64,000 bases of DNA from Rhizobium sp. Q54 (GTDB lineage: Bacteria > Pseudomonadota > Alphaproteobacteria > Rhizobiales > Aestuariivirgaceae): the NCBI GenBank assembly GCA_945889445.1, contig CAMDBX010000001.1, positions 62,001 to 126,000 of the forward strand. Direction: 5' to 3'. Shown piece by piece: positions 36,516 to 54,364 of the stretch; position 1 is the first letter of the stretch, and each line of letters opens with the position of its first letter. Both the position numbers and the translations under genes were made by a program. Under the pieces are notes generated by a model, which was given only the letters and a program-made list of their open reading frames with translations, had not been told where the DNA came from and searched no databases.

Positions 36516-36607
36516 TGCCGCCTCTTTTAGGCCATTCTCGTTGCCGAGGATGAAAACAATTCATCCGGGGCTGATCCAGCCCCGGTTCCCATACGATAGT
36601 GAGTGAA

Positions 36608-37606
<999 letters not shown>

Positions 37607-37610
37607 ACTG

Positions 37611-38489: not shown

Positions 38490-41281
38490 ACCTGCTCGGC
38501 GCGCTCTCCTTCGCCACGCCACTGGCACTTGCCGCGCTGCTGTTGCTGCCGGTGATCTGGTGGCTGCTGCGCTTCACCCCGCCGCGCCCGGAGACGGTGC
38601 GCTTCCCGGCAATCCGCCTGCTGCTGGGCTTGAAGAACCGCGAGGAGAAGCCGGACAAGACGCCATGGTGGCTTCTGCTGCTGCGCTTGGCGCTGGCGGC
38701 CCTCGTCATCATCGGCGTGTCGCAGCCGCTCTATGCACCGGGCCGCATCGGCACCCTGACCAACACGCCGGTGCTCGTGGTCGTCGACGACAGCTGGGCC
38801 GCCGCGAAGGACTGGGACCAGCGCCGCGAGGTGATGGCGGAGATCCTCGACAATGCCGCGGCCGCGGGCGCCACGGTGACGCTTGCCACGACAACGCCTG
38901 AGCTTCGCCCCCAGGCCCTGGAGCCCAAGACCGCTGCCGACGTGAAGGCGCGTGCCGCAGCGCTTGCACCGCGCGCCTTTGACCCGGACCGCTTGGGCAC
39001 GCTCGACCGGCTTGCCGCGGCATTCGGCAAGTCGGAGGCGCTGCGCGTGATCTGGCTGTCCGACGGCATCGACGATGGCAAGGCGCAGGATTTCGCTGTG
39101 GGGCTGCAGAAGCTGGCCAATGGCGCGGCCGCGGTCGAGGCCATCGTGCCGTCCACGGCGCAACTGCCGCTTGCCCTCGCAACGCCCGGTTTCGAGGGTG
39201 GTCAGATCAAGGTCACCATGCTGCGCGCGCCCGGTGGCCCGGTGCAAACGGTGCCGGTCGTCGCCACCGCGGGCAATGGCCGCAGCTTCGGCGATGTCAC
39301 GCTGAACTTCGCCGCAGGTACAACGATGGCAGCGGGAGTCCTCGAGCTTCCCGTTGAACTGCGCAACGAGGTGGGGCGCATCGCCATCAAGGACGAGCGC
39401 AATGCCGCGGCGGTGTTCTTGATGGATGATCGCTGGCGCCGCAAGACGGTGGGCCTGATGTCGGGCACCACCGCGGAAATGTCGGAGCCGCTTCTGGCCC
39501 CGCTCTACTTCGTCTCGCGCGCGCTCGACCCTTATGCCGAAGTGAGCCAACCCGACGGCACGGCGGCACTCAAAAGCCTGCTGGACCAGGGTCTCTCCAT
39601 GCTGGTGCTGGCCGACATCGGCGTGCTGCCGGGCGAGCAGCAGGACATGATCTCGCGCTGGGTGGACAATGGCGGCGTGCTGCTGCGCTTCGCGGGCCCG
39701 CGCTTCGCCGGTGCGCAGGACGGCCTGGTGCCGGTGACGCTGCGCGCCGGCGACCGCTCGCTCGGCAGTGCGCTGAGTTGGGAGACGCCGCAACCGATGC
39801 AGCCCTTCCCCGAAAAGAGCCCCTTTGCCGGCCTGACGCCCGACCCGTTGGTATCGGTGAACCGGCAGGTGCTGGCCGAGCCTGATTCCGACTTGCCGGA
39901 CAAGGTGTGGGCCAGCCTCGCCGATGGCACGCCGCTGGTGACCGCCAAGAAGGAAGGCAAGGGCCTGGTGGTGCTGTTCCATGTCACGGCCAATGCCGAC
40001 TGGTCGAACCTGCCGGTCTCCGGCCTGTTCCTTGAAATGCTGCGCCGCGTGCTTGATCTTGCGCCGGCCGCCGGCAGCGGCGTCAAGAGCAGCGCCATCG
40101 CCAGCGAAGCCCAGGCCTATGCGCCCTTCCTGGCGCTTGACGGCTTCGGCGACCTGACCAGCCCCTCGCCCGACGTACAGCCCATTCCCGCCACCGCAAT
40201 CGACAAGGTCACGGCCACCGCCGCGACACCGCCCGGCCTCTATCGCCGCGGTGAACAGGAGCGTTCCATCAACATCACCCATAGCGGAGCCGCGTTGACC
40301 GCGATTTCCACGCTTCCCGACGGTGTGGCGCAGCGCGCCCTGGCGCCGCTGCCGACACTGGCGCTGGCGCCCTATGCCTTCGCGCTCGCCATGCTGGCCT
40401 TCCTCGCCGACTGCTGTGCAGCCCTGTTTCTCGGTGGCGGACTGACGCGCATGCGCCAGCGCCGCGCCGCGGCGGCGGCGCTGCTGGCCCTCACCTTGGT
40501 GACGGCGTGGCAACCGCTTGCCGTCCAAGCCCAGTCGGACGCCGACTTTGCCATGCAGAACGCGCTCGAGACCAGGCTCGCCTATGTGAAGACGGGCGAT
40601 GCCGAGATCGACAGCATCAGCGAAGAGGGCCTCAGGGGCCTCGGGCAAATGCTGCGCGAGCGCACCTCCGTCAACACCGGCGATCCCGTCGGCGTCAACA
40701 TCGAGCGTGACGAGCTGGTGTTCTTCCCGCTGCTCTACTGGCCGGTGCGGCCAGAGGCGACCGTGCCATCGGACGCCGCGCTGGCGCGCATGGATGCCTA
40801 CATGAAGGGAGGCGGCACCATCTTCTTCGACCTGCGCGAGGATGGCTCCGGCGCTGACGCGCTGAGCGGCGGCGCCACCGCCGCGTCCGAGGCGCTGCGC
40901 CGCATCCTGGCCAAGCTCGACATTCCGCCGCTGGAGCCGGTGCCATCTTCGCATGTGCTGACCAAGAGCTTCTACCTGCTCGACCGCTTCCCCGGCCGCT
41001 ATGACGGCGGCAAGCTGTGGGTGGAGCGCTCCGACAGCGAGGGTGCGGCCATCGGCAATACCGATGGGGTGAGCGGCCTGATCATCGGCGCCAATGACTA
41101 TGCTGCGGCCTGGGCCATGGATGTGAACGGCGATCCGCTCTACGCCTCGGTGCCGGGCACCGACCGGCAGCGCGAGTTCGCGGTGCGCACCGGCATCAAC
41201 ATCGTGATGTATGCGCTGACCGGCAACTACAAGGCCGACCAGGTGCATGTGCCCGACCTTCTCGACAGGCTGGGACAATGA
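38486..41281 (+). CDS. BatA-like N-terminus fused to DUF4159 membrane protein
   Basis: A 931-aa membrane protein. The N-terminal BatA segment has two transmembrane helices (residues ~8-28 and 58-78) with the FTPPRPETVRFPAIRLL motif. A vWA-like domain follows with VVVDDSWAA (degenerate MIDAS, DxSxS reduced) and IWLSDGIDDG. After a beta-rich region come further helices (~625-655 and ~665-685), the second looking like an internal signal peptide. The C-terminal DUF4159 domain contains ELVFFPLLYWPV and GGTIFFDLRED. It may be a processed fusion. It overlaps the next gene by 4 bp. The role is probably envelope maintenance with MoxR; not proven. Confidence 0.85.
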   Translation: MNLLGALSFATPLALAALLLLPVIWWLLRFTPPRPETVRFPAIRLLLGLKNREEKPDKTPWWLLLLRLALAALVIIGVSQPLYAPGRIGTLTNTPVLVVVDDSWAAAKDWDQRREVMAEILDNAAAAGATVTLATTTPELRPQALEPKTAADVKARAAALAPRAFDPDRLGTLDRLAAAFGKSEALRVIWLSDGIDDGKAQDFAVGLQKLANGAAAVEAIVPSTAQLPLALATPGFEGGQIKVTMLRAPGGPVQTVPVVATAGNGRSFGDVTLNFAAGTTMAAGVLELPVELRNEVGRIAIKDERNAAAVFLMDDRWRRKTVGLMSGTTAEMSEPLLAPLYFVSRALDPYAEVSQPDGTAALKSLLDQGLSMLVLADIGVLPGEQQDMISRWVDNGGVLLRFAGPRFAGAQDGLVPVTLRAGDRSLGSALSWETPQPMQPFPEKSPFAGLTPDPLVSVNRQVLAEPDSDLPDKVWASLADGTPLVTAKKEGKGLVVLFHVTANADWSNLPVSGLFLEMLRRVLDLAPAAGSGVKSSAIASEAQAYAPFLALDGFGDLTSPSPDVQPIPATAIDKVTATAATPPGLYRRGEQERSINITHSGAALTAISTLPDGVAQRALAPLPTLALAPYAFALAMLAFLADCCAALFLGGGLTRMRQRRAAAAALLALTLVTAWQPLAVQAQSDADFAMQNALETRLAYVKTGDAEIDSISEEGLRGLGQMLRERTSVNTGDPVGVNIERDELVFFPLLYWPVRPEATVPSDAALARMDAYMKGGGTIFFDLREDGSGADALSGGATAASEALRRILAKLDIPPLEPVPSSHVLTKSFYLLDRFPGRYDGGKLWVERSDSEGAAIGNTDGVSGLIIGANDYAAAWAMDVNGDPLYASVPGTDRQREFAVRTGINIVMYALTGNYKADQVHVPDLLDRLGQ

Positions 41282-43338
41282 TGGACTGGAGCGTCTCCTT
41301 CGAACCGTTTCTGCCGTGGGCGCTGATCGCGCTGGCAGGTGTTGCCGGCCTCGCACTTCTGCTGGCGCTGGCCATCGGCCGGTCGCGCGGCACGCTGCTG
41401 CGCGCGCTGTCCTTTGCGCTGCTGCTTGCCGCTCTCGCCAATCCGGTGGTGCGCAACGAGGAGCGCCAACCACTGCCCGACATCGCTGTGGCGGTGGTCG
41501 ACCTGTCGCTGAGCCAGCAGACGGGCGCGCGCAGCAAGCGCACCGAGGAGGCCGTTGCGGCACTGAAGCAGGCCGTCGCACGGCTTCCCAACACCGAGCT
41601 TCGCACCGTCGACGTCAAATCCCTCGCCAGCAGCGAGGATGACGGCACCCGCGCCTTCGAAGTGCTGAACCGGGCACTTGCCGACATTCCACCCGACCGT
41701 TTCGCGGGCGCCGTCATGATCACCGACGGACAGGTGCACGACGCGCCGCAGGATCCGGCCAAGAGCGGCATTGGCGGACCACTGCATGCCCTGATCACCG
41801 GATCGAAGACCGAGAAGGACCGCCAGATCGTCATCGAAAAGGCACCGCGCTTCGGCATGGTAGGCCAGGAACAGATCGTGTCTTTCCGCCTCGACGAGGC
41901 GAACGGCCCGGGCCAGCCGGTGCCGGTGACCATGACCGTCAGCGGCGGCACGCCGATCACCCTCGATGTCTCGCCCGGCCAGACGGTGGAGGTGCCGGTG
42001 GCCGTCGATCACGGCGGCCAGAACATCGTGGAGATCACCGCACCGTCGCTCGACGGCGAGATATCGCTCCAGAACAACCGTGCCGTGACCGTGATCGAGG
42101 GCGTGCGTGACCGGCTGCGCGTGCTGCTGGTCTCGGGCGAGCCGCATGCCGGTGAACGCACCTGGCGCAACCTGTTGAAGGCCGATGCCTCCGTCGACCT
42201 CGTGCACTTCACCATCCTGCGCCCACCCGAGAAGCAGGACGGGACGCCGACCAAGGAACTGGCCCTCATCGCCTTTCCGACGCGCGAATTGTTCGTCGAC
42301 AAGCTCGACCAGTTCGATCTCGTGATCTTCGACCGCTATCGCCGCCAGTCGGTTCTGCCCGAGGCCTACATGTTCAACATCGCGCAATATGTGCGCAATG
42401 GCGGCGCGGTTCTGATCGCGTCAGGCCCTGATCTCGCCGCCGAGGATGGCCTCTACAGCACGCCGCTCTCCGACATCATGGCGGCAATTCCCACCGGCGA
42501 CGTGGTGGAGGAGCCGTTCAAGCCGATGCTCACCGACCAGGGCCGGAAGCACCCTGTCACCAAGGATCTTCCCGATTCCGCTGGCGAGACTCCAAGCTGG
42601 GGCCGCTGGTTCCGCCTCGTCGACACTTCGACGCAATCGGGCGAGACGGTGATGTCGGGTCCCGGCGACAAGCCGCTGCTGGTGCTCTCGCGCCAGGACG
42701 AAGGCCGTGTGGCGCAGTTGCTGTCCGACCAGGGCTGGCTGTGGGCGCGTGGCTTCGAGGGTGGCGGCCCGCAGACCGAACTGCTGCGCCACCTGGCGCA
42801 CTGGCTGATGAAGGAGCCCGACCTCGAGGAGGAGGCCCTCAACGGCAGGCAGCAGGGCAACGACCTCATCGTCGAGCGCCGCACCATGGCCGACAGCGCC
42901 GAACCGGTGGAGGTGACGCTTCCGTCCGGCAAGACAGAGACCGTACCCCTGCGCCAGATTTCGCCGGGGCGCTTCCAGGGATCGCTGCCCGTCACCGAAG
43001 CCGGGCTGCACCGGCTGGCCGACGGCAAGCTGATGGCGGTTGCCGCCACCGGCAACGGCGATGCGCGCGAGATGGCCAATCTGCGGTCGACCACCGACGT
43101 GCTGGATCCGGTGGCCCGGGCCACCGGCGGCAGCACAGGCTGGCTGGAAGATGGCATGCCGCAGATCGTCAAGGTATCAGCTGGCCGCCAGATGGCAGGC
43201 GCGGGCTGGATCGGCCTGCGCGCCAATGACAGCTACCGCGTGCAAGCGGTGTCCGACACGCCGCTCTTTGCGACGCTGCTAAGCCTCGCAGCGCTGCTGC
43301 TCGCCCTGGGCAGCATGTGGTACCGCGAGGGCCGCTGA
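41278..43338 (+). CDS. membrane protein with vWA domain and glutamine-amidotransferase-like region
   Basis: A 686-aa protein with two N-terminal membrane helices (residues ~10-55) and one at the C-terminus (~660-680), so the bulk is on one side of the membrane, presumably periplasmic. The first soluble part has vWA MIDAS elements DLSLSQ (DxSxS) and MITDGQ. The region from ~275 (LRVLLVSGEPHAGERTWRNLL, IFDRY, VRNGGAVLIASGPDLA) resembles the class I glutamine amidotransferase-like fold seen in MoxR clusters. It is last in the operon. Its final 60 nt overlap the 3' end of the convergent GNAT gene. Confidence 0.82.
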   Translation: MMDWSVSFEPFLPWALIALAGVAGLALLLALAIGRSRGTLLRALSFALLLAALANPVVRNEERQPLPDIAVAVVDLSLSQQTGARSKRTEEAVAALKQAVARLPNTELRTVDVKSLASSEDDGTRAFEVLNRALADIPPDRFAGAVMITDGQVHDAPQDPAKSGIGGPLHALITGSKTEKDRQIVIEKAPRFGMVGQEQIVSFRLDEANGPGQPVPVTMTVSGGTPITLDVSPGQTVEVPVAVDHGGQNIVEITAPSLDGEISLQNNRAVTVIEGVRDRLRVLLVSGEPHAGERTWRNLLKADASVDLVHFTILRPPEKQDGTPTKELALIAFPTRELFVDKLDQFDLVIFDRYRRQSVLPEAYMFNIAQYVRNGGAVLIASGPDLAAEDGLYSTPLSDIMAAIPTGDVVEEPFKPMLTDQGRKHPVTKDLPDSAGETPSWGRWFRLVDTSTQSGETVMSGPGDKPLLVLSRQDEGRVAQLLSDQGWLWARGFEGGGPQTELLRHLAHWLMKEPDLEEEALNGRQQGNDLIVERRTMADSAEPVEVTLPSGKTETVPLRQISPGRFQGSLPVTEAGLHRLADGKLMAVAATGNGDAREMANLRSTTDVLDPVARATGGSTGWLEDGMPQIVKVSAGRQMAGAGWIGLRANDSYRVQAVSDTPLFATLLSLAALLLALGSMWYREGR

Positions 43339-43860
43339 ACCGGGAACCTGCGCGAGGCCCGAAGCGCCTTCGAGCGCGCCGGGTGTGAGCTCCAGATACA
43401 GAAAGCGTGCCGGGTCGACGGGGCCGGGCAGGCTGATCAGCCCATCGGGCAATTTGCGGAATCCAACCTTGGCGTAATAGGGCTCGTCTCCCACCAGCAG
43501 CACCAGGCCGTGGCCCTGGGCGCGGGCGCGCGCCAGGCCTTCCTCCATCAGCGCAATGCCGATACCCAGCCCCTGCCGATCCGGATGCACGGCAAGCGGC
43601 CCCAGCAGCAGGGCGGGCGACAGCCGCACCCCAATGGCCAGTGGCCAGAAGCTGATGGTGCCGGAAACACCCACGCCCGCGTCACGCGTCACCATTGAAA
43701 GGCCGGGAACGGCGCTGTTGCCCTCGCGCAGGCGGTAGGATGTCTTGCCATTGCGGCCGGAGCCGAAGGCGAGGTCGAGCAGGTGCTCGATGGCATCATG
43801 GTCGTGAGAGGTCGTGTCTTCGCAGGTGATGGGGCCGCACATGGGCAGGATCTCGGACAA
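43279..43860 (-). CDS. GNAT-family N-acetyltransferase
   Basis: A 193-aa GNAT protein. The acetyl-CoA motif is LLGPLAVHPDRQGLGIGIALMEEGLARA (key part HPDRQGLGIG) near residue 90, followed by VLLVGDEPYYAKVGF, typical of the YhbS-like group. The substrate is unknown. The last 20 codons run through the 3' end of the convergent vWA gene; family members usually end soon after PARFLYLELTPGAL, so the extra tail may be a product of the overlap. The start at 43860 gives MSEILPMCG; later starts are possible. Confidence 0.85.
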   Translation of the reverse strand: MSEILPMCGPITCEDTTSHDHDAIEHLLDLAFGSGRNGKTSYRLREGNSAVPGLSMVTRDAGVGVSGTISFWPLAIGVRLSPALLLGPLAVHPDRQGLGIGIALMEEGLARARAQGHGLVLLVGDEPYYAKVGFRKLPDGLISLPGPVDPARFLYLELTPGALEGASGLAQVPGSAALAVPHAAQGEQQRCEA

Positions 43861-44059: not shown

Positions 44060-44539
44060 TCACCAGATCCGCGACGGAGTTGCCCCTGACAGCACTTCCG
44101 TGATGCGCCGCCGGGTTCCCGGGGTGGTCCCTTCTGGAAGCGCCGCAGTGGCAAAGAACCGTGCCTCCGCAATTTCGGCACTGGGCGTGAAGTCATCCTC
44201 GCGGAACCGCCGCACCACGAAGCAGGCCACGTGATCGCCCCTGAACTGCGCGTCATTGAGGAAAACGCCATGCAGCACCGGGGCCTCCTCCGCCACGATC
44301 CCCGCCTCCTCGCGCAGTTCGCGCAACGCGGCATCGGCCAGCGCCTCGCCGCGCTCGACACCGCCGCCCGGCAGCAGCCATCCTGGGGCATAGCCGTGCC
44401 GCACCAGAAGGACTTCTGTTGCATTCGCCTTCAGCACCACGATTCGCGTGCCCAGCGTCATGCCACGCGTCTGGCGATAGGCCACCCGCAGGACAGGTTT
44501 CACAACCCGGAACAGCATGGCTTTAAGGCGCTCTGGCAT
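44060..44539 (-). CDS. NUDIX hydrolase
   Basis: A 159-aa NUDIX protein. Its Nudix box, GGGVERGEALADAALRELREEAG in full form with key residues G-E-R-E-E-G, follows LLVRHGYAPGWLLPG. The N-terminal 20 residues are basic and hydrophobic (FRVVKPVLRVAYRQTRG). It is divergent from the ceramide synthase candidate, 72 bp away. The substrate is unknown. The 199 bp between it and the GNAT gene hold nothing I can recognise. Confidence 0.87.
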   Translation of the reverse strand: MPERLKAMLFRVVKPVLRVAYRQTRGMTLGTRIVVLKANATEVLLVRHGYAPGWLLPGGGVERGEALADAALRELREEAGIVAEEAPVLHGVFLNDAQFRGDHVACFVVRRFREDDFTPSAEIAEARFFATAALPEGTTPGTRRRITEVLSGATPSRIW

Positions 44540-44611: not shown

Positions 44612-45754
44612 ATGAGCCAGTCCGTCAGCGTCCGACCGGTGCGCGGCAAGGAAGACCTTCGGGTCTTCCTGGACGTACCGTTCGCGATCTATGCCGACGA
44701 TCCCAACTGGGTGGCGCCGCTCTATGTCGAGCGCCTGGAGCATATCGACCCGAAGCGGAATCCCTATTTCCGGCATGCCGATGCCGAACTCTTCCTTGCG
44801 TTTCGCGGCGACAGGCCGGTAGGCCGCATCTCCGCGCAGCTCTGCCGTCTGCGCAGCGAGCGCCACGCAGACGGCGTTGGCCAGTTCGGCTTCATCGAAG
44901 CCGAAAATGACCCCGCGGTCTTCGCCGCCCTGTTTGACGCCGCAGGTGCCTGGCTGAAGCAGCGCGGTGCCACCGCCATTCAGGGCCCATTCAGCTTCTC
45001 GATCAACGATGAAACCGGCCTCCTCGTCGAGGGCTTCGAGACGCCGCCTTCGGTTTTGATGGGTCATGCGCGCCCCTATTATGGGCAGCGCATCGAAGAG
45101 GCTGGCTTCGCCAAGGCGAAGGACGTCATCGCTTATGACCTTTTCGCAGCGCCCGAGATACCGCGCGCCCTCAAGTCGGCCTATGACAAGGCGCTCTCCG
45201 ACACGGACGTAACGCTGCGCCCGCTTGACAAGAAGCAACTGCTGAAGGAGTTGCGCACCGTCGTTTCCATCGCCAACGATGCATGGTCCGAAAACTGGGG
45301 CTTCGTTCCCTGGACGGAAGAGGAGATGATGGCGCTCGCCAACAATCTCAAATTCCTGGTGAGCGGCGACTACATTGCGATCGCCGAATATAAGGGCGAG
45401 CCCGCGGCCATGGCCATTACCCTGCCCAACATCAATGACTGGCTCACCGGTCTGCAGGGCCGCCTCCTGCCCTTCGGCTGGGCGAAGATCGCATGGAGCC
45501 TTTACGCGAAGCCACCTCAGTCGGTGCGCATGCCGCTCATGGGACTGCGCAAGAAGTTCCACGGCACAGCCACCGGCGCCGTGCTCGGCATGGCGGTGAT
45601 TGCCCGCGTCCGGAACTTTCACGTCGGCCGCGGCACCACGAAGGGCGAGGCCTCATGGATCCTCGAAGACAACATGCCAATGCGCCGCATGATCGAAGCC
45701 TTCGGTGGCCGGCCCTACAAGACTTATCGCATTTATGAGAAGTTAATCGGTTAG
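44612..45754 (+). CDS. bcerS: bacterial ceramide synthase candidate (GNAT-like, YghO family)
   Basis: A 380-aa protein of the YghO-like family with a GNAT-related fold: RPVRGKEDLRVFLDVPFAIYADDPNWV at the start (key part VPF.IY..DPNWV), FSINDETGLLVEGF and HARPYYG in the middle, and NWGFVPWTEEEM in the second half. In Caulobacter a member of this family is the bacterial ceramide synthase that N-acylates the sphingoid base, unrelated to eukaryotic ceramide synthases. Here it lies 4.4 kb from serine palmitoyltransferase, with kinase and permease genes between, supporting that role. No membrane segment is obvious. Function is by family and context. Confidence 0.78.
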   Translation: MSQSVSVRPVRGKEDLRVFLDVPFAIYADDPNWVAPLYVERLEHIDPKRNPYFRHADAELFLAFRGDRPVGRISAQLCRLRSERHADGVGQFGFIEAENDPAVFAALFDAAGAWLKQRGATAIQGPFSFSINDETGLLVEGFETPPSVLMGHARPYYGQRIEEAGFAKAKDVIAYDLFAAPEIPRALKSAYDKALSDTDVTLRPLDKKQLLKELRTVVSIANDAWSENWGFVPWTEEEMMALANNLKFLVSGDYIAIAEYKGEPAAMAITLPNINDWLTGLQGRLLPFGWAKIAWSLYAKPPQSVRMPLMGLRKKFHGTATGAVLGMAVIARVRNFHVGRGTTKGEASWILEDNMPMRRMIEAFGGRPYKTYRIYEKLIG

Positions 45755-45798
45755 GCGCTACCCGCGTCAGGCAGCGCCGCGCTGCCCCGTTCCAGTGT

Positions 45799-46746
45799 GT
45801 GTCAGCCAGAAGTTTGCCAGCTCACGTGTTCACCCTCGCCCATCTTTCCGACCTTCACCTTGGCCCACTGCCCGCCGGATCGGCGCACAGGCACTTTGCC
45901 TTGAAACGAACGATAGGCGTCATGAACTGGCGGCTCAGTCGTCACCGCGTGCACAACCCCGCCGTGGCCCTGGCCATCGCTGCCGACATCGTGCGCGAGG
46001 CACCAGACCATGTGGCGCTGACCGGCGACATCGTGAACGTCGCGGCGCGCGAGGAATTCGTGGCGGCATCTCGCTGGATGAACGCCTTCGGCACGCCAGA
46101 CTGGATCAGCTTCGTGCCAGGAAACCATGACTGCTACGTGCGCATGGCGTGGGAGCATGGCCTGCTTCACCTCGCGCCCTACATGCAGGGCGACATGCGC
46201 GTGCCCCTCACCCAGGACTCGCCGCAGATCACAACACCCTTCCCCTATGTGAGGCTCCGCCGCAACGTCGCCCTTATCGGCGTCTCGACGGCCGCGCCGC
46301 AACCCCTCCACCGGGCCTCGGGCCAGCTGGGCCGCACCCAACTGAAGTCGCTCGCCCATCTTCTTTCGGACCTCCGCGAGCGCGGTTATGCGCGCGTGGT
46401 GATGATCCACCACCCGCCGCTGCCCGGGCTGGCCAGCCCGCGCAAGGCGCTGATCGACGCCGCCCCGCTGCGCGACGTGCTGGAAGCGCAGGGCGCAGAG
46501 TTGGTACTCCACGGCCACAACCATGAGCACATGCTGAACACCCTCAATTCCCGCTTCGGCGCGGTGCATGTGCTGGGGGTGCCCTCGGCCTCCCTGATCG
46601 AGGAGCAGCACCACCCCCTGGCCGCATGGAACCTGTACCGGATCCAGCGTCTGGCGGGAAAATGGCAGATCGACGTGTCGATCCGCCGCTATGATCCAGC
46701 CAGCCGTCAGGTCGCCCCCCTGACTGAATTCACCCTTTCATCCTGA
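45799..46746 (+). CDS. metallophosphoesterase
   Basis: A 315-aa calcineurin-like phosphoesterase. The metal-binding motifs are in order: LSDLHLG, LTGDIVN, PGNHDCY, MIHHPPLPG and LHGHNHEHM. There is no signal peptide, so it is cytoplasmic or membrane-associated. It lies between the ceramide synthase candidate and the LptF/G-like pair. A role in lipid phosphate turnover is conceivable but untested. The chosen GTG start (45799) gives MSARSLPAHVF; a GTG at the VFTLAHL codon is an alternative. Confidence 0.85.
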   Translation: MSARSLPAHVFTLAHLSDLHLGPLPAGSAHRHFALKRTIGVMNWRLSRHRVHNPAVALAIAADIVREAPDHVALTGDIVNVAAREEFVAASRWMNAFGTPDWISFVPGNHDCYVRMAWEHGLLHLAPYMQGDMRVPLTQDSPQITTPFPYVRLRRNVALIGVSTAAPQPLHRASGQLGRTQLKSLAHLLSDLRERGYARVVMIHHPPLPGLASPRKALIDAAPLRDVLEAQGAELVLHGHNHEHMLNTLNSRFGAVHVLGVPSASLIEEQHHPLAAWNLYRIQRLAGKWQIDVSIRRYDPASRQVAPLTEFTLSS

Positions 46747-46809
46747 TCGCTGGCTGGCTAGATTGCGCCGGTTGACGATCCCCCTCTCTTCCGGAAGCTG
46801 AAACCCACC

Positions 46810-48030
46810 TTGCTGCTCCCCATCCTCGACAGGCATGTCATGCGGCAAGTATCGCTGCCACTCGCGGGCGCGCTGGTGATCGGCTTGCTGATGCTGCTGG
46901 CCGACCGCATGGTCCGCCTGCTCGACACCACGCTCGGCAAGAAGAACTCCTTCTCGGTCGTGTTCGAGATGCTGGCCTATCTTGTGCCGCATTACCTGGG
47001 CACGGCACTGCCGGCCGCGCTGTTTCTCGGTCTGCTGTTGGGATTCGGCAAGATGTCGGAGAATTCCGAGACCGACGCCTTCATGGCCTCGGGCGTAGGC
47101 CTCAACCGCATGGCCCGCCCGGTGATCCTGATGGGTGTGCTGATCAGCATCATCTCCATGCTCATCATGGGATGGATCCAGCCCTATGCCCGCTATGCCT
47201 ATCGCTCGGTGGTGTTCGACATCCAGAACGTGGAAGTCTTCTACCTCGCGGAAGAAGGCGTGTTCATGCAGGCAGGCGACCGCACCTTCGTCATCGACAA
47301 GCTGGACCGCAGCACCAACGCGTTCGAGCATGTGTTCATCTTCGAAGACAATGGAGCAAAGGGGTCCGACACCGTCACAGCCTCGCGCGGCTCGCTCGTC
47401 GACAACCCTGCAGGCCAACGGCCTATGCTGCACCTCGAGGACGGCCACCGCCTCACCTTCAAGACCAGGCCCGATGTCACCTCAAAGGAGCCAGCCATCG
47501 GCGAGGCCACCAAATTCGCACTTGCCGATACGCCGCTCGGCCGCATTTCCGATGACATCTTCCGGCTGCGCGGCGAGGACGAGCGTGAACTGACGCTCCC
47601 CGAACTGTTTACCGCGCTCAAGAACCCACCGCCAAAATCGAGCCCTGAGGACGTCAGCTCAGAGTTGAGCGAGAGACTGGTGATGGCGGTGAGCATCCTG
47701 ATCCTGCCCTATCTTGCAATTCCCTTCGCGGTGGGTTCGCGGCGCAGCGCTCGCGGCTTCCGCACTGGCGTCGCCCTCGTGCTGATCGTCGTCTACAACG
47801 AGATAATCCACCAGGGTGCCTCATTGGCCAATCACGGGGTGGCCTCGCCCTTGCTCACTATGTGGTTGCCCTGCCTGCTGCTTGCCGCGTTTGCCGCCTG
47901 GCGCTACATCGGCACTTGCTTCACCCTGCGCAACGATCCGGTCAGCGCCGCCATCGACCGCGTGGGTGAGTTCTTCGGCAACCTGCGTCGCAGCGTTGTG
48001 TACCGTCTTGGATGGGGAAGACCGACATGA
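46810..48030 (+). CDS. LptF-like permease (YjgP/YjgQ family) in sphingolipid cluster
   Basis: A 406-aa YjgP/YjgQ permease. Six helices are expected: three near the N-terminus (from LPLAGALVIGLLMLL on), the periplasmic beta-jellyroll in the middle (residues ~140-265) and three at the C-terminus (from LVMAVSILILPYLAIPFAV). The coupling-helix pattern ENSETDAFMASGVGLNRM (usual E-x-x-A-x-x-x-x-G) is kept, so it should work with an LptB-type ATPase. True lptFG normally sit next to lptD/surA/pdxA; here the neighbours are sphingolipid genes. TTG start at 46810; an ATG at 46840 is possible. Coupled to the next gene by 4 bp. Confidence 0.88.
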   Translation: MLLPILDRHVMRQVSLPLAGALVIGLLMLLADRMVRLLDTTLGKKNSFSVVFEMLAYLVPHYLGTALPAALFLGLLLGFGKMSENSETDAFMASGVGLNRMARPVILMGVLISIISMLIMGWIQPYARYAYRSVVFDIQNVEVFYLAEEGVFMQAGDRTFVIDKLDRSTNAFEHVFIFEDNGAKGSDTVTASRGSLVDNPAGQRPMLHLEDGHRLTFKTRPDVTSKEPAIGEATKFALADTPLGRISDDIFRLRGEDERELTLPELFTALKNPPPKSSPEDVSSELSERLVMAVSILILPYLAIPFAVGSRRSARGFRTGVALVLIVVYNEIIHQGASLANHGVASPLLTMWLPCLLLAAFAAWRYIGTCFTLRNDPVSAAIDRVGEFFGNLRRSVVYRLGWGRPT

Positions 48031-49103
48031 TGAAGATCATCGGCTTGATGCTGAACCGCATGGTCGCCATTCGCTTCTTCGGCATCCTTCTCGGCATCTC
48101 CTTTTTCGTCCTGTCGCTCGACGTCCTGACCAATGCCAAGGACCTGCAGACGCTGCGCCCCAACGACATGACCATCCTGCTGCAGTACATGCTGTATCGC
48201 GCTCCGTCCGTGCTGGTGAACTACATGGGCATCAGCATGCTGCTCGCCATGTTGCTGAGCCTCACCGAACTGAGCTACCGCAACGAGATGGCGGCGATGT
48301 GGGCGGCGGGAATTTCACCGGCGCGACTCATCATCATGCTGCTGCCGCTGGCCTTCGTGGCAGGCGCGATCAATTTCATGCTTTCGGATTCAGCCATTCC
48401 CGCCACCATCCCGCAACTGCGCGACTGGGGCGTGGGCGACTATGGCGCAGAAAAGTTGAAGCTTGGCGAGAAGGACCCGATCTGGATGCGGGCGGGACCG
48501 GACATCCTCCGGGCGGAAAGTGCCAACGCCGATTCGACCGAGCTCGACGGTGTCATCATCTTCCGCCGCGACGAACAAGGCCTTCTGCATGAGCAGATCT
48601 ATGCCAAGCAGGCGACGCTTTTCGAGGGCCGCTGGACGCTGTCCCAGGTGCTGGTTTATTATCGCGACAATCTCCAGCCGTCGCGTCTTGAAACCCTGGT
48701 CTACTCTGGTGCCATGAAGCCCGCCCAGGCCGGCGCACGTTCCGGTGCGCCAGAGGACATGTCCTTGTCGGAGCTTTTCTACTTCATCGATAACCAAGGC
48801 TTCGGCATCCGGCCTGTATGGGTCTATGAAACTTGGGCGAACAAGCGCGTCTCGCTGTTCTTCTCGGGCCTCCTGATGATGGGCCTGTGCATTCCACTGG
48901 CCACCCGCTTCCGCCGCGGTGGTGGCCTTGGCGCGTTGTTCGCGGTCGGTGTCGGCATTGGCTTCGTCTACTTCATCGTTGATGGCATATCGCTCACCAT
49001 GGGCGAGCTTGGCTTCGTCAGGCCATGGCTTGCCGCGTGGCTGCCGATCCTCGCCTTCGGGTCCCTCGCCGTGGTGATGACGCTCAGGTCGGAGACAGTG
49101 TGA
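48027..49103 (+). CDS. LptG-like permease (YjgP/YjgQ family) in sphingolipid cluster
   Basis: A 358-aa partner permease. It has N-terminal helices starting MVAIRFFGILLGISFFVL, the coupling segment LSYRNEMAAMWAAGISPARL (E-x-x-A-x-x-x-x-G), the periplasmic beta-jellyroll (residues ~125-250) and three C-terminal helices. The ATG at 48027 overlaps the LptF-like stop by 4 bp (ATGA) with GGGGAAG upstream; a start at 48012 is less likely. Its stop overlaps the GTG of the DAG-kinase-like gene by 4 bp. So LptF-LptG-kinase form one coupled unit. It could be the only LptG of the organism or a specialised copy. Confidence 0.88.
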   Translation: MMKIIGLMLNRMVAIRFFGILLGISFFVLSLDVLTNAKDLQTLRPNDMTILLQYMLYRAPSVLVNYMGISMLLAMLLSLTELSYRNEMAAMWAAGISPARLIIMLLPLAFVAGAINFMLSDSAIPATIPQLRDWGVGDYGAEKLKLGEKDPIWMRAGPDILRAESANADSTELDGVIIFRRDEQGLLHEQIYAKQATLFEGRWTLSQVLVYYRDNLQPSRLETLVYSGAMKPAQAGARSGAPEDMSLSELFYFIDNQGFGIRPVWVYETWANKRVSLFFSGLLMMGLCIPLATRFRRGGGLGALFAVGVGIGFVYFIVDGISLTMGELGFVRPWLAAWLPILAFGSLAVVMTLRSETV

Positions 49104-50068
49104 CGGGGCGGCCGCGGCGTGCCGGGCTGATCGTCAATCCGCGCTCCGGCAAGGGCAGCGGCAAGGGCCAGGCGCTGGCCGAAAAGCTGAAGGGTGATCC
49201 CGGCATTTCGCTGCACGTGCTCGAACACTTCGCGCATCTCGAGGACGTGATCGCCAGCATGGCACAGGAGCAGGTGACCGACCTGTTCATCAGTTCGGGT
49301 GACGGCACCATCCAGGAGATCCTCACCCAGATCGCCGAGCGGCCGCTCTTTTCACAGCAGCCCCGAATCTGCCTGCTGCCGCACGGCACGACCAATCTCA
49401 GCGCCAATGACCTGGGCTTCGTAAACCGCTCGATCGATGTTCAGGCGGCGTTCCTCAGGCGGCCGGAAGCACGAAGGCTTGCCACCCGCAACACCATACG
49501 CTGCGTGAACCCCGGAGACGGCAAACTGCGCCACGGCATGTTCGTGGCCACTGGCGCCATGTCGATCGCCACGCATTACTGCCAGCGCGCCTTCAACGAA
49601 CAGGGCGTCAAGGGACAATGGGCTGTGGCCAAGACACTGCTGACGGCGGTGCGCAAATACATGTTCTCTGCACCTGACGGGAAGGACGATGCGCGCTTCG
49701 ACCGCCCCTATGCGATTTCGGTCGATGCCAACGGCCGCCGTCTGGCTGAGGGAACGCAGCTCCTGCAGATGTCGACGACACTCGATACGTTGTTGCTGAA
49801 GTGCCACCCCTTCTGGGGCGGCAAGACGGCGCCCATCCGGACGACGGTGATCCCCTATCCCGTGCCTTCGGTGCTGCGCTGGATGCTGCCCATCATGTAC
49901 GGTGGCGAGAACCACGCAAGCCCTGCTGGCGCCGCGAGCTTCTGCTCCGAGCAACTCTCCGTCGCATCGGACGTCATGTTCGTGATTGACGGTGAATTCT
50001 TCCCCCCACCCAAGGATGAGCCGCTGCGGCTGGAAACCGGCACCGAGTTCACCTTCATCAGACGCTAG
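49100..50068 (+). CDS. cpgB: diacylglycerol-kinase-family lipid kinase, ceramide kinase candidate
   Basis: A 322-aa protein of the DAGK-catalytic/LCB5 family. The N-terminal VNPRSGKGSGKGQALAE and the ATP-binding SSGDGTIQEILT (GGDGT-type, here SGDGT) followed by LLPHGTTNLSANDLG are clear. In Caulobacter the homologous CpgB phosphorylates ceramide on the way to anionic ceramide phosphoglycerate lipids. GTG start at 49100, overlapping the LptG-like stop by 4 bp. No CpgC/CpgD-like genes are seen in the window. A general lipid kinase of DAG type remains possible, but the gene neighbourhood favours ceramide. Confidence 0.78.
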   Translation: MTGRPRRAGLIVNPRSGKGSGKGQALAEKLKGDPGISLHVLEHFAHLEDVIASMAQEQVTDLFISSGDGTIQEILTQIAERPLFSQQPRICLLPHGTTNLSANDLGFVNRSIDVQAAFLRRPEARRLATRNTIRCVNPGDGKLRHGMFVATGAMSIATHYCQRAFNEQGVKGQWAVAKTLLTAVRKYMFSAPDGKDDARFDRPYAISVDANGRRLAEGTQLLQMSTTLDTLLLKCHPFWGGKTAPIRTTVIPYPVPSVLRWMLPIMYGGENHASPAGAASFCSEQLSVASDVMFVIDGEFFPPPKDEPLRLETGTEFTFIRR

Positions 50069-50116
50069 ACTTCCGCCCCGGCCTTCGCCTGGCCGGACAG
50101 GGGACATCGCGATCGC

Positions 50117-51325
50117 CTAGCCGTTCGCGACCTTCTTGCCGTGGCCCTGCGCCACCACCGCGCCGAACAGTTCAATGATGCGGTCGATCTCGGCGTCGGA
50201 ATGCGCGGCTGAAACGGAGCAGCGTAGCAGGCACAGCTTGTTGGGCGTGCCCGGCGGCAGCGCGATGTTGACATAGACGCCTGCCTTGAGCAGTGCGCCC
50301 CACATGGAAATGGTCAAAGGCTCGTCCGGGCAGCGCACTGCCACGACAGGGCTCACCACATCGCATCCGAGTTCGAGGCCCAGGTCCTTGAAGCCATGGA
50401 ACAGCCGTGCCGAGTTTTCGGCCAGCTTCTTGCGCCGCTGCGGTTCCGCCGCGAGCTTGCGGATCGCCGCAAGCGATGTGGCGATGGAGGCCGGCGAGGA
50501 CGATGCGGTGAACATGTAGGGCCGCATCGCATAACGCAGATATTCGAAATAGGGATGGTCGCCCGCCCCGAAGCCGCCGATGGCACCCACGCTCTTCGAG
50601 AAGGTGCCAACAACGAAGTCGACCTCCTTCTCAAGACCGGCCTCGTCGGCCAGTCCGCGGCCATGGGGCCCGAGAACGCCGAAGCTGTGCGCCTCGTCGA
50701 CCAGCAGCTGGAAGCCGTGCTTCTTCTTCACTTCGATGAAGTCAGCCAGCGGTGCCCTGTCGCCCATCATCGAGTAGATGCCTTCGAGCACGACGAGCTT
50801 GCCGCCGCCATCTTCTTCGCCCCGGGTCAGGCGCTTGTCGAGGTCGGCGGCATCATTGTGGCGGAAGCGCACCAGCTTGGCGCCCGACAGCGTGCAGCCG
50901 TCATAGATCGAGCTGTGCGAGTCGGCGTCGAGGTAGATCGTGTCGCGCGATCCAGCGAGGCCCGACATCATGCCGAGGTTCGCCTGGTAGCCGGTGGTGA
51001 AGACAATGCAGTGCTTGCGGTCAAGGAAGGTCGCAAACTCGGTCTCGAGCTGCTTGTGAAGTGCGAAGGAGCCGTTGGCGATGCGCGAGCCCGTGGTGCC
51101 GGTGCCGAACTCGGCCAGCGCCTTCTGGCCCGCCGCGATGCATTCGGCATCGAAGGTGATGCCCATGTAGTTGTTGGTGCCGGCGAGAATGGTCTCGCGG
51201 CCGTCGATCAGCGCGCGGGTTGGCGAGATCAGTTTCTCGTTGACGACGCCCACGGCGTCTCCGCCCAGAAACTTCATGCGGGCGTGGCGTTCGGCAGTCG
51301 TCGCGAGCTTGGCGAGAAGGTCCAT
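50117..51325 (-). CDS. spt: serine palmitoyltransferase (alpha-oxoamine synthase)
   Basis: A 402-aa PLP enzyme of the alpha-oxoamine synthase family. DEAHSFGVLG (residues ~210-219) and GTFSKSVGAIGGFG with PLP-Lys ~244 are the family core, with NNYMGITFD near the N-terminus. Serine palmitoyltransferase condenses serine with a palmitoyl thioester to 3-keto-sphinganine. KBL and BioF are relatives, but the coupled acyl carrier protein, epimerase and acyl-AMP ligase genes match the sphingolipid operon of Caulobacter. It follows the ACP gene by 3 bp. Confidence 0.88.
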   Translation of the reverse strand: MDLLAKLATTAERHARMKFLGGDAVGVVNEKLISPTRALIDGRETILAGTNNYMGITFDAECIAAGQKALAEFGTGTTGSRIANGSFALHKQLETEFATFLDRKHCIVFTTGYQANLGMMSGLAGSRDTIYLDADSHSSIYDGCTLSGAKLVRFRHNDAADLDKRLTRGEEDGGGKLVVLEGIYSMMGDRAPLADFIEVKKKHGFQLLVDEAHSFGVLGPHGRGLADEAGLEKEVDFVVGTFSKSVGAIGGFGAGDHPYFEYLRYAMRPYMFTASSSPASIATSLAAIRKLAAEPQRRKKLAENSARLFHGFKDLGLELGCDVVSPVVAVRCPDEPLTISMWGALLKAGVYVNIALPPGTPNKLCLLRCSVSAAHSDAEIDRIIELFGAVVAQGHGKKVANG

Positions 51326-51328
51326 GCC

Positions 51329-51568
51329 TTACCCCTTCTTTGTCCGGGCCTCGACGACCTTTGCGAGGTCGGCCACCGTGCGTGTTTCCGACAGCACGTT
51401 GAGCGGGATCTCGATGTCGAAGTGGTCCTCCACCTCCATCACGAAATCCATCACCGTGACGGAGTCGATGTTGAGGTCGGTCGAGATGTCGGTTGCGGCC
51501 GAGAGGGCCGAGCCGTTGGTATTGAACGGTTGGAGCAACGTGCAGAGTTGGGAGACGGTGTCGGTCAT
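51329..51568 (-). CDS. acpR: dedicated acyl carrier protein for sphingolipid synthesis
   Basis: A 79-aa acyl carrier protein. The phosphopantetheine site is in DLNIDSVTVMDFVMEVED with Ser36 (DSV in place of the usual DSL). The acidic helix II follows. In Caulobacter-type ceramide synthesis a special ACP supplies the acyl group to serine palmitoyltransferase. The ATG at 51568 overlaps the reductase stop by 4 bp; an upstream extension from 51625 is in the reductase gene. Four of the ceramide genes are thus packed on one transcript. Confidence 0.9.
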   Translation of the reverse strand: MTDTVSQLCTLLQPFNTNGSALSAATDISTDLNIDSVTVMDFVMEVEDHFDIEIPLNVLSETRTVADLAKVVEARTKKG

Positions 51569-52536
51569 TGAGACGTCCTTGAACTTGGCGTTCTTGTATC
51601 GGTGCCGCGCCCCCGAGGCAACCACCCGGCATTGCGGTACCAGGTCACGGTTTCGGCAAAACCCGTGTTGAAGGAGGTGGGGTCGGCCAGCGCCAGGGTG
51701 CCGGCGCGGGCCACCCAGTCGGGATGATAGAGCTCGGCAATCTTGCCGCTGTTCACCATGCCAGGCTTGCCCGTCAGCCGCGACAGGCCTTCGGCCAGCC
51801 CGGCCACCGCGGCGGGAAGGGCGCGAGGCAGAAAGATCGGGCGAATTGGTGCCCCCCGGAAGCCGGAGGCGGTGCTGATCAGGTCGCCCCAGCCATAGCC
51901 GCCCGGCTTGTCGTCGCTCACCTCATGCAGGCCCTGTTGGTCCGATTGCACCGCAATCGCGATGATGCGGGCAAGGTCACGCCCATGGATCAGCGAAAAC
52001 CGGGCATTCGGCAGGCCGGGAATGGCCGCCACGGGGCGCGTCAGTTCCTTGATCAGCGGCAGCGTGCCGCGGTCGCCGGGGCCATAAACAGCCGGCGGCC
52101 GGATGAGAATGGCGTTGAGAGCCGCCATGCGCTCCCGCACGATATCCTCGCCGGCCCGCTTGCTGGCGGCATAGGATGACAGCTGCGGCTCGCGCGCCGC
52201 GAGCGAGGAAATGTGCACGAAGCGCCGCACGCCGGCCCGTTGCGCGGCGTCCGCCAGCGCCCGGGTGCCCAGTTCGTTGACACTAAAATACGCCGCGCAG
52301 TCGAGGCCCGTCAGTGCGCCAGCAAGATGGACGATGGCGTCGGCGCCATCGGTCAACTGCACCAGCGCCTCGGCGTCGGCGAGATCGCCCTTCACCAGTT
52401 CCACGCCCTCGGGCAGGCCTGCCTTCTCCGGACTGCGCACCAGCGCGCGCAGGCGGTGGCCGCGCAGCAGCAATTCGGCTACGGCGTGCCGACCGGCGAA
52501 GCCCGTGGCGCCGGTGATGGCGATGATCTTGCTCAT
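51565..52536 (-). CDS. cerR: NAD-dependent epimerase/reductase, ceramide reductase candidate
   Basis: A 323-aa extended SDR. The NAD motif ITGATGFAGRHAVAELL is at residues ~7-23, with VHLAGALTG, the SSLAAREPQLSSYAASK segment with catalytic YxxxK, and RPPAVYGPGDRG. In Caulobacter the epimerase-like CerR reduces oxidised (3-keto) ceramide to ceramide after N-acylation. Its place between the acyl-AMP ligase and the ACP-Spt pair fits that role. Other NAD-dependent sugar epimerase functions are possible from sequence alone. Confidence 0.82.
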   Translation of the reverse strand: MSKIIAITGATGFAGRHAVAELLLRGHRLRALVRSPEKAGLPEGVELVKGDLADAEALVQLTDGADAIVHLAGALTGLDCAAYFSVNELGTRALADAAQRAGVRRFVHISSLAAREPQLSSYAASKRAGEDIVRERMAALNAILIRPPAVYGPGDRGTLPLIKELTRPVAAIPGLPNARFSLIHGRDLARIIAIAVQSDQQGLHEVSDDKPGGYGWGDLISTASGFRGAPIRPIFLPRALPAAVAGLAEGLSRLTGKPGMVNSGKIAELYHPDWVARAGTLALADPTSFNTGFAETVTWYRNAGWLPRGRGTDTRTPSSRTSQ

Positions 52537-52564
52537 GATGTTCTGTGCGGCGGCCGAAGCCGCC

Positions 52565-54364
52565 TCAGAGCGCGGCCTCGAGGCTGGCGATCGCGGCGCT
52601 CAGCGACAGCGACGTCACTTCCGCGATCTCGCCCGACAAGAACTTTTGCTTGGCGGCGGCGCGCGACAGCTTGCCCGAGGAGGTGAAGGGCAGGCTCTTC
52701 GGTGGCACCATCACCACCTTGCATTCAACGCCTGCGGAGCGGTGCACCACGGCGGCCACTTCGTGGCGCAGCGCCTCGACGGACGCGCCGTCCTGTACGC
52801 GGCAATGCACCAGCACCGTCACCTCGTCCTCGCCCTCGTCATTCTCGACGGCGAAGGCGGCAACGTCACCCGAGCGCAGCGGCTCGATCTGCTCGGCGGC
52901 CCATTCGATGTCCTGCGGCCAGATGTTGCGGCCGTTATGCAGGATCAGGTCCTTTGCGCGACCGGTGATCACGATCTCGCCGTCCAGCCAGTAACCCATG
53001 TCGCCGGTGTCGAGGAAGCCGTTCTGGCCAATCACCGAGGCAGTCGCCTCGTCATTGTGATAGTAGCCGGACATCAGGCTCGGCGTGTTGACGAAGATGC
53101 GGCCGACAGCGCGCGCACCCAGCACGTTGCCGCGCGCGTCGCGGATCTCGACGGTGCTGCCGTCCATCGGGCGACCGCATACCACGAAGCTGCGGGCATT
53201 TGCGCCACGGGCCGGAACGGCCCTGCCCTCATGCTTAAGGGCCTGGCGGTCGATTGAGTCAACGCGGATGGGCGCATCCGGGTCGATGAAGGAAATGGCC
53301 AGAGTCGTTTCGGCCATGCCGTAGCTCGGCAGGAAGGCGTGCGAGCGGAAGCCGGCAACGGAAAGATGAGCCGCGAAGCTCTCCAGCACGTCGGCGCGCA
53401 CCATGTCGCCACCGATGCCAGCGATGCGCAGGCGCGACAGGTCGAGGGCCACCGCATCGCCGTTGATGCGGCGGGCGGCGAGGTCATAGCCAAAGCTCGG
53501 CGAATAGGTGATCGTCGACTTGTTGTCCGACATCAGCTTCAGCCACAGCGCAGGGCGGCGGGCGAATGAGGTGGTCGCGAGAAAGTCGACGCTCACCTGG
53601 CCCATGGTGGCCGACAGGCAGAAACCGACAAGCCCCATATCATGATACAGCGGCAGCCACGAGAAGGCACGATCCTCGGGGGTGATGCGCATGCCATCGC
53701 GCAGAATGCCGCGCGTGTTGGACATGATGGCCTTCTGCGAGATCAGAACGCCCTTGGGGTTCGACGTCGAACCCGAGGAATACTGGATATAGGCGTCTTC
53801 ATCCGCCTTGAAAGCCTCGAGCTTGGTGGCGGCCTCGGGCAGTGCCTGCAGTTCGGCGTGGGTCAGCACGCGGCGCGCACCGGCCCGCGCGGCGCCTTCG
53901 GAAATGTGGCCGAGCAGATCCTCGCCCGTCACCACGGTCTGGGCCTTGGCGGCAGCGAGCATGCCGGCCACGCGGTCGATGTAGGAGTCCTTGCCGCCGA
54001 TATACATGGTGTAGGGCATCGGGCAGGGAATGAGCCCGGCATACTGGCAGCCGAAGAACACCGCCATGAACTCGGGGCCTGTCTCGGCGACGACGGCAAC
54101 ACGGTCGCCGCGCTTAAGGCCGAGCGAGAGAAGCTTGCGAGCCGTGGAGATCGCCTGGTGGCGCAACTCGGCGTAGGGCAGAACGCTCTGCACAGCTCCA
54201 CGCGGGGAATAGAAATTGAAGCCGGTAACGCCCTTGGCCGCATAGTCGAGACCTTCGGTCAGCGTGGCAAAGCCACCGAGCTTCTGAGCGAGGCTGCGAT
54301 TTGAGGTCGGGGTGACCGATACGGACGTCTCGGTCTCAGCGTTCCGCTTCAAAGCGCTCTGCAT
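52565..54364 (-). CDS. acsR: fatty acyl-AMP/acyl-ACP ligase, start of ceramide operon
   Basis: A 599-aa ANL-superfamily adenylating enzyme. Motifs: the P-loop YIQYSSGSTSNPKGVLISQ (~residues 180-198), HDMGLVGF, SYGMAETTLAISF, and the C-terminal DTGDMGYWLDGEIVITGRAKDLIL with the conserved Gly-Arg-Lys hinge. The FAAL-type insertion (FLATTSFARRPALWLKLM region) suggests it makes acyl-AMP and loads an ACP rather than CoA. The next genes are cerR, acpR and spt. It is the first gene of the minus-strand operon, with paired TTCGTAAC motifs upstream. Confidence 0.86.
   Translation of the reverse strand: MQSALKRNAETETSVSVTPTSNRSLAQKLGGFATLTEGLDYAAKGVTGFNFYSPRGAVQSVLPYAELRHQAISTARKLLSLGLKRGDRVAVVAETGPEFMAVFFGCQYAGLIPCPMPYTMYIGGKDSYIDRVAGMLAAAKAQTVVTGEDLLGHISEGAARAGARRVLTHAELQALPEAATKLEAFKADEDAYIQYSSGSTSNPKGVLISQKAIMSNTRGILRDGMRITPEDRAFSWLPLYHDMGLVGFCLSATMGQVSVDFLATTSFARRPALWLKLMSDNKSTITYSPSFGYDLAARRINGDAVALDLSRLRIAGIGGDMVRADVLESFAAHLSVAGFRSHAFLPSYGMAETTLAISFIDPDAPIRVDSIDRQALKHEGRAVPARGANARSFVVCGRPMDGSTVEIRDARGNVLGARAVGRIFVNTPSLMSGYYHNDEATASVIGQNGFLDTGDMGYWLDGEIVITGRAKDLILHNGRNIWPQDIEWAAEQIEPLRSGDVAAFAVENDEGEDEVTVLVHCRVQDGASVEALRHEVAAVVHRSAGVECKVVMVPPKSLPFTSSGKLSRAAAKQKFLSGEIAEVTSLSLSAAIASLEAAL

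Follow-up and report, generated by a model that had tools for sequence, protein, structure and literature searches.

Why would two permeases of the kind that serves lipopolysaccharide (LPS) export be encoded inside a gene cluster for ceramide synthesis? The question is raised by a 64,000-nucleotide stretch of the Rhizobium sp. Q54 genome (positions 62,001 to 126,000 of contig CAMDBX010000001.1; hereafter the window), in which an lptF–lptG pair lies within the ceramide cluster at 44612-54364. A sequence-only reading of this DNA had listed the ceramide genes, noted that 4-bp overlaps couple the pair to a lipid kinase gene, and suggested that the permeases may extract anionic ceramides for transport to the outer membrane, either as the only LptFG of the genome or as a specialised set. 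All of the genes that it named were recovered at their coordinates, together with a metallophosphoesterase gene that had gone unmentioned, and both overlaps are real (ATGA at 48027-48030 for lptF/lptG; GTGA at 49100-49103 for lptG/kinase). At the genome level, the proposed extraction of anionic ceramides is supported by gene content and by the permease trees. What that reading had not seen is that LpxC and LpxB, enzymes of lipid A synthesis, are missing. We consider it likely that LptFG of the sphingolipid-cluster type (SL-type) feeds (phospho)ceramides into an Lpt bridge that has been freed from LPS.

Permeases and lipid A genes in spt genomes

The cluster sits in contig C1 of the window genome (G000), which has 4.94 Mb and is 99.6% complete. 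The whole genome holds three matches to the permease family PF03739, namely the window pair and an orphan LptF gene at C150:294-1454. Neither a second lptFG pair next to lptD, surA or pdxA nor a second LptG was found anywhere in it, and the lptD locus runs pepA-lptD-surA-pdxA-ksgA without lptFG. Both of the possibilities raised earlier hold: the pair is the only LptFG and also a specialised set, save for the orphan LptF, which belongs to the same clade. The bridge parts of LPS export that were searched for, LptB, LptC, LptA and LptD, are all present. The lptC, lptA and lptB genes are grouped upstream of rpoN, LptB (375 bits) being the sole match above the TIGR04406 cut-off (runner-up 163 bits) and the LptC of this locus being the one LptC-family gene found with the Pfam LptC model.

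The retention of these canonical parts, and the lack of any other complete pair in the genome, would suit ordinary LPS export by a canonical LptFG that had moved into the ceramide cluster, with lipid A made by diverged enzymes that profiles miss. However, LpxC (PF03331) and LpxB (PF02684) gave no matches in the window genome, in a search that covered these two lipid A genes and left LpxA, LpxD, LpxK and WaaA outside it, a scope that leaves LPS export some room. E. coli and Caulobacter are among the controls in which both models match. The absence of lpxC as a draft artefact of one genome was rejected, since six of six sampled family members, 99-100% complete, are without it.

Eighty loci with spt, the serine palmitoyltransferase gene, were fetched from other genomes as the best 80 of 128 matches to the window Spt, a choice biased towards its relatives. 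In 49 of them the sequence reaches at least 9 kb to either side of spt, and 44 of these 49 encode one or more LptF/LptG permeases, with two in 39 cases; this linkage is more than chance. Whole genomes were then searched in a set of 51, made up of the window genome and 50 hand-picked from the 80 loci to span taxa. LpxC was found in 11 and was absent from 40, including the isolate Aestuariivirga litoralis, which has its GTDB genus in common with the window genome. LpxB was found in 12 (the 11 lpxC-positive genomes, where both models match in every case, and one Sphingomonas, G043) and not in the other 39. These absences, seen against the matching controls, argue against LPS as the cargo. LptD was found in 50 of the 51 (absent from G031) and in 39 of the 40 lpxC-negative genomes.

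All 11 lpxC-positive genomes have four permeases. Typing with profile hidden Markov models (HMMs), which were built from tree clades and trained on part of the sequences typed, gave each of the 11 one SL pair in the ceramide cluster and two LPS-type permeases, although in two Desulfo genomes (G045, G046) 'LPS-type' means only the two permeases outside the ceramide cluster, which are on separate contigs. Sequences that had not been used in training (e.g. L018, L020, L124, L228) type equally clearly. In nine of the 11, the LPS-type pair adjoins pepA (and, in alphaproteobacteria, lptD). The typed lpxC-positive alphaproteobacteria have the SL pair in addition to the pepA–lptD pair, which also counts against LPS export through the SL type. 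Permease numbers in the 40 lpxC-negative genomes were two (27 genomes), three (nine, one of these counts including a 19-bit fragment in G009 that is below the cut-off), four (three) and five (one). Among the permeases typed, 39 of these 40 genomes show the SL type only, the exception being G047 (discussed below); the typing does not cover one further G033 pair, the fragment in G009 or the SL LptG of G042, which is fused to LptF in one frame. Additional diverged LptFG pairs occur at loci L175 (G067), L203 (G017) and L204 (G027). Those of the lpxC-negative genomes G017 and G027 have low HMM scores, and that of the lpxC-positive G067 (family f18) lies near an Spt-like gene and a cerS homologue.

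The lptD loci of six lpxC-negative genomes (G000, G002, G004, G018, G023 and the Sphingomonas G044) have a pepA–lptD gap of 86-166 bp that is permease-free in all six, in contrast to two permeases between pepA and lptD at 14 canonical loci; the latter were fetched at permease matches and hold permeases by construction, whereas the lpxC-negative loci were fetched at lptD. What is new here is the joint pattern: loss of lpxC goes with loss of the LPS-type pair and with retention of the sphingolipid pair and the bridge, in 39 of 40 lpxC-negative spt genomes.

A sample of 150 genomes of the order, each at least 90% complete, overlaps the 51-genome set (e.g. A. litoralis, locus L021, is both G004 and G113). 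LpxC was absent from 22 of the 150 (two known by elimination) and PF03739 from six; Spt was present at E <= 1e-105 in 32, with 23 of these over the cut-off. LptFG was kept in 17 of 17 genomes with spt and without lpxC, versus none of the five that lack both. One of the 113 lpxC-positive genomes without spt has no LptFG (G072), and the 15 with both genes divide into 11 that have four or five permeases and four, all of family f46, that have two. The sharpest case of the co-loss pattern is genus g32. Its lpxC-positive members G081, G121 and G179 combine an SL pair, located at spt, with an LPS pair flanked by pepA and lptD; the lpxC-negative G152 (100% complete) has two permeases, both SL-type and both in the spt locus. 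The five genomes without lpxC, spt and LptFG (G097, G131, G161 and G187 of family f47; G111 of family f19) may be bacteria that make no LPS and whose Lpt system is reduced or lacking.

Ancestry of the sphingolipid-cluster pair

Both window permeases are full-length PF03739 matches, well over the gathering score of 27.9, and therefore belong to the family; solved LptG and LptF chains in the PDB are related to them (E 2.5e-11 and 1.5e-13). They miss the equivalog cut-offs for LPS export, with 214.2 versus 230 bits for LptF (TIGR04407) and 201.9 versus 240 bits for LptG (TIGR04408). In HMM typing, LptF scored 552 bits as SL-type versus 95 for the best LPS-type, and LptG 516 versus 120.

For the trees, manual selection reduced 176 permease rows to 62 LptF and 55 LptG, leaving out near copies and some long branches; the approximately unbiased (AU) tests used 56 and 51 rows, with more long branches out. 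A concatenated LptF+LptG tree held 49 pairs and 713 columns and omitted L070, L213, L175, L193, L203 and L204, among others. In this tree the alphaproteobacterial ceramide-cluster pairs form one clade (100/99), with the window pair beside that of A. litoralis, and the alphaproteobacterial pepA–lptD pairs form a distinct clade (100/100). The sequence-only reading had held that ordinary LPS transport would place the pair inside the normal LptFG clade; it falls outside. The SL clade also includes the pair of G070, whose spt is on another contig, and is joined by L070 and L213 in the single-protein trees. A topology that derives the window-type pair by relocation from the alphaproteobacterial LPS pairs was rejected with the concatenated alignment (AU p 0.0099) and with LptF alone (p 0.032). 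An AU test in which only the window rows were constrained to join the LPS pairs was left unused, as it splits sisters that are 90% identical.

Ceramide-cluster pairs of gammaproteobacteria and Desulfo- genomes fall outside the alphaproteobacterial SL clade. A single origin of all sphingolipid-cluster pairs was rejected (p 2.2e-6, concatenated; 0.011, LptF), with no rejection by LptG alone (0.074). Because of this rejection, sphingolipid clusters probably gained LptFG on two or more occasions. Such repeated recruitment would contradict the horizontal transfer from an alphaproteobacterium that a passage of PMC11324152 suggests for the gammaproteobacterial clusters.

The orphan LptF was tried as half of an LPS pair and rejected, as it lies inside the SL LptF clade and scored 279 bits as SL-type versus 82. 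The clusters of G026 and G029 encode LptG without LptF, and an orphan-type LptF is the sole LptF of these genomes; the orphan-type paralogue can therefore probably partner LptG2. The orphan locus is L004 (cf. L194-L197, L198); in one sister genome (L195), genes for a FYDLN_acid protein and a cytidylate kinase lie close to the orphan.

We also compared residues, in an exploratory way, at positions chosen from a scan of all columns. They include LptG K34, K40 and K41 and LptF K30 and R292 of E. coli, which we take to be substrate contacts. At the K41 position, alphaproteobacterial LPS-type LptG is basic in 79% (24 rows) and SL-type acidic in 88% (42 rows), with D in the window protein. The K40 position is R in 96% of the alphaproteobacterial LPS type and basic in 29% of the SL type (K in the window). 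At the LptF K30 position the SL type is basic in 39 of 39 rows and the LPS type has Q in 91% of 23, and R292 is conserved in both types alike. These differences fit a changed substrate and are no proof of one.

Candidate cargo and route

On the reading that we prefer, Spt, AcpR, AasR, CerS and CerR would make (dihydro)ceramide in the cytoplasm and periplasm; in Caulobacter, CerR is periplasmic and Spt and bCerS are cytoplasmic (PMC11087976, in the part consulted). The kinase, judged by homology, would phosphorylate the ceramide. LptF2 and LptG2 would join the one clear LptB of the genome, and the resulting LptB2F2G2 would pull the sphingolipid from the inner membrane, for LptC and LptA to relay to LptD and the outer membrane. 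The bridge would be free for this use because LPS-type lptFG and, to judge by the negative LpxC and LpxB searches, lipid A synthesis have apparently disappeared from the genome and its relatives. We infer the substrate, the direction and the use of the bridge, and with them every transport step, from gene content, clade membership and the patterns of co-loss and co-retention. We are also inclined, though only slightly, to see a full conversion of Lpt from LPS to sphingolipids in several alphaproteobacterial lineages, in which LPS-type LptFG was cleanly excised after lipid A loss, the SL type became the sole extractor and LptD a sphingolipid gate, with ceramide-1-phosphate as a possible cargo in the window genus.

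Several observations weigh against sphingolipid export by this route. One Desulfobacterales metagenome-assembled genome (G047; loci L094 and L193) has spt, lacks lpxC and lpxB, and carries a single LptFG pair ∼40 kb from spt; the pair groups with non-cluster Desulfo permeases in the LptF and LptG trees (99) and its HMM typing is ambiguous, so this genome appears to retain LptFG without an SL-type pair. Four genomes of family f46 (G096, G130, G160 and G186) are lpxC-positive and have an Spt-like gene below the NF047599 cut-off and two permeases each; sphingolipid synthesis without an SL LptFG pair is possible there. The Fisher test of LptFG retention with spt among lpxC-negative genomes (p = 3.8e-5) overstates independence because the genomes come from few families: the five that lack spt are from two (f47, four; f19, one) and the 17 with spt from eight, and most lpxC-negative genomes among the 51 belong to a single neighbourhood within Hyphomicrobiales. 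Relocation of an LPS pair, which LPS export would require, is not rejected by LptG alone (AU p 0.14), and the LptG K34 position is mostly D in both types. Lastly, of the CPG/CPG2 phosphosphingolipid pathway the window locus has the kinase candidate, and homologues of the four CPG head-group genes were not found there, in a search of the locus that did not extend to the rest of the genome, and they are likewise absent from the loci of the closest relatives (L018-L023, L025, L072). In other lpxC-negative relatives (L024, L026, L028, L037, L071, L214) the cluster adds a CDP-alcohol transferase, a MobA-like nucleotidyltransferase and two more genes, all four with Phenylobacterium homologues. Because the head-group genes are absent from its locus, the lipid of the window genome may be either ceramide-1-phosphate or a ceramide with a different head group.

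The rival that survives best, and that we still regard as unlikely, is that the pair moves a different envelope lipid (a glycolipid, lipoprotein, hopanoid or capsule-linked lipid) and that its position in the cluster reflects co-regulation only. Lipoprotein transport interacts with the LPS machinery in E. coli and Borrelia, according to an excerpt of PMC13317210, and the missing head-group genes would fit such a cargo. Yet LptFG retention follows spt among lpxC-negative genomes (17/17 versus 0/5), the permeases are linked to spt in 44 of 49 full loci, and LptFG probably entered ceramide clusters at least twice; as to hopanoids, Aestuariivirga is listed among the genera without shc in the part of PMC12583986 consulted. 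It seems to us quite improbable that SL-type LptFG acts only at the inner membrane, or passes the sphingolipid to another periplasmic carrier of the LptC2 type and not to LptA–LptD. The Caulobacter cluster does have a dedicated LptC2 (CC_1168; PMC11324152, in part), a diverged LptC2 could evade the Pfam LptC model in the window genome, and LptD could be retained for another purpose; against this, the one LptC-family gene found lies in the lptC-lptA-lptB-rpoN locus, and LptD retention in 39 of 40 lpxC-negative spt genomes speaks for a use of the whole bridge. Ordinary LPS export is the least probable of the three, given the lipid A gene searches, the concatenated relocation test and the genomes that carry both kinds of pair.

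Sphingolipid export by SL-type LptFG would matter beyond this locus. Genomes seemingly without lipid A yet with one SL-type LptFG pair and LptD amount to a natural deletion experiment, in which the part that Lpt plays for LPS is separated from the one proposed for sphingolipids, and offer a host for LPS-free tests of LptD and LptFG. If the proposal is true, Lpt would be a more general lipid exporter, with LptFG setting the substrate.

The window cluster and related systems

On the + strand the order is cerS, metallophosphoesterase, lptF, lptG and DAGK_cat kinase (44612-50068), opposite spt-acpR-cerR-aasR on the - strand (Table 1). The five genes of the proteobacterial ceramide pathway (aasR, cerR, acpR, spt and cerS) are all present, the calls for acpR, cerR and cerS resting on general acyl carrier protein (ACP) and SDR models, a fold match and conserved position.

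Table 1. Genes of the ceramide cluster in the window, with the basis of each call
Gene or product	Position	Strand	Basis
cerS, ceramide synthase candidate (bCerS/CC_1154 type by position), tandem GNAT fold	44612..45754	+	position, fold match
calcineurin-like metallophosphoesterase	45799..46746	+	PF00149 44.6 bits
lptF, sphingolipid-cluster type (LptF2)	46810..48030	+	PF03739 229 bits; TIGR04407 214.2 bits
lptG, sphingolipid-cluster type (LptG2)	48027..49103	+	PF03739 198 bits; TIGR04408 201.9 bits
DAGK-family lipid kinase, ceramide kinase candidate	49100..50068	+	PF00781 57 bits
spt, serine palmitoyltransferase	50117..51325	-	NF047599 577 bits, cut-off 500
acpR, dedicated acyl carrier protein	51329..51568	-	ACP models E 1e-11, below curated cut-offs
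cerR-like SDR reductase	51565..52536	-	PF01370 102 bits; position conserved in relatives
aasR, fatty acyl-AMP ligase	52565..54364	-	NF006624 761 bits, cut-off 600

The cerS product had no match in the Pfam or NCBIfam profiles. Its AlphaFold model (25 sequences; pLDDT 83.6) has tandem-GNAT proteins as its top PDB matches (2wpw and others), and this predicted fold is as expected of a bCerS. Homologues (331-351 bits) occur in the corresponding cluster of Phenylobacterium, Stella and Pseudomonas luteola. Of 60 spt loci with permeases, 42 have a metallophosphoesterase open reading frame (ORF) at most 700 bp from that of a permease; an excerpt of PMC11324152 considers CC_1157, which may or may not correspond to the window gene, to be probably without a link to sphingolipids. 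The kinase has weak homology (42 bits) to an spt-adjoining gene in Phenylobacterium. Because of the GTGA overlap with lptG, its start is most likely 49100 rather than the first ATG of the ORF, 49025. The likely start of acpR, from its translation, is 51568, giving a 4-bp overlap with cerR.

Beside cerS lie a GNAT gene (43279-43860, -) and a NUDIX hydrolase gene (44060-44539, -), as also in relatives such as L018-L023, L034, L038, L045 and L047. Upstream of the cluster, 36599-43338 holds a MoxR-type ATPase gene (36599-37606) followed by long ORFs (931 and 686 aa), the last of which has a weak glutamine-amidotransferase-like match. Promoter and terminator scans gave counts near shuffle level (2 versus 1.3 and 5 versus 6.7), and a tRNA scan of loci L004 and L005 found none.

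The concept of transport by LptF2/LptG2 is already in print for Caulobacter. PMC11324152, in the sections consulted, names CC_1168, CC_1156 and CC_1155 LptC2, LptF2 and LptG2 and proposes that they carry phosphosphingolipids similarly to LPS, transport itself not being investigated there; these sections report a co-fitness of 0.60 between CC_1156 and CC_1159 and give none for CC_1155. Its introduction calls the route of sphingolipids to the outer membrane unknown, and an excerpt of PMC11087976 states that a bacterial sphingolipid flippase or lipid transporter is not yet identified. In the open-licence PMC literature (subscription work may exist), PMC11324152 was the sole paper found on Lpt and sphingolipids together, and none turned up that deals with Lpt in sphingolipid bacteria devoid of lipid A, or with Aestuariivirga as LPS-free or as having lost lipid A; the main text of PMC12275187 has no word starting 'Lpt'. 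Neither the loss-of-LPS pattern nor the probable repeated recruitment was found in the literature searched.

Sphingomonas is said to carry sphingolipids instead of LPS (PMC11087976, in part). Like the window genome, G043 and G044 have a single SL-type lptFG pair in the spt locus and no lpxC, and pepA–lptD of G044 is without lptFG; unlike it, they belong to another order, and G043 has an LpxB match. With the LptB2FGC–LptA–LptDE system of E. coli, the window genome has in common the PF03739 permeases and LptB, LptC, LptA and LptD, whereas LpxC and LpxB were not found in it and its permeases score below the LPS-export equivalog cut-offs. Alphaproteobacterial LPS-type LptG differs from the window type in charge pattern at the E. 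coli K40 and K41 positions, not at K34. The closest likeness is to Caulobacter crescentus (CC_1168-CC_1152 region), which also has an lptFG pair inside the ceramide cluster. Cluster pairs from Phenylobacterium and other relatives in the Caulobacteraceae fall in the clade of the window pair, the Caulobacter genes themselves being absent from the tree. However, LptF2/LptG2 of Caulobacter are second versions beside an LPS set in a genome where the LpxC control matches, whereas the window genome is without the LPS pair, LpxC and LpxB; its locus also differs in having no CPG head-group genes and in the overlap of the kinase gene with lptG.

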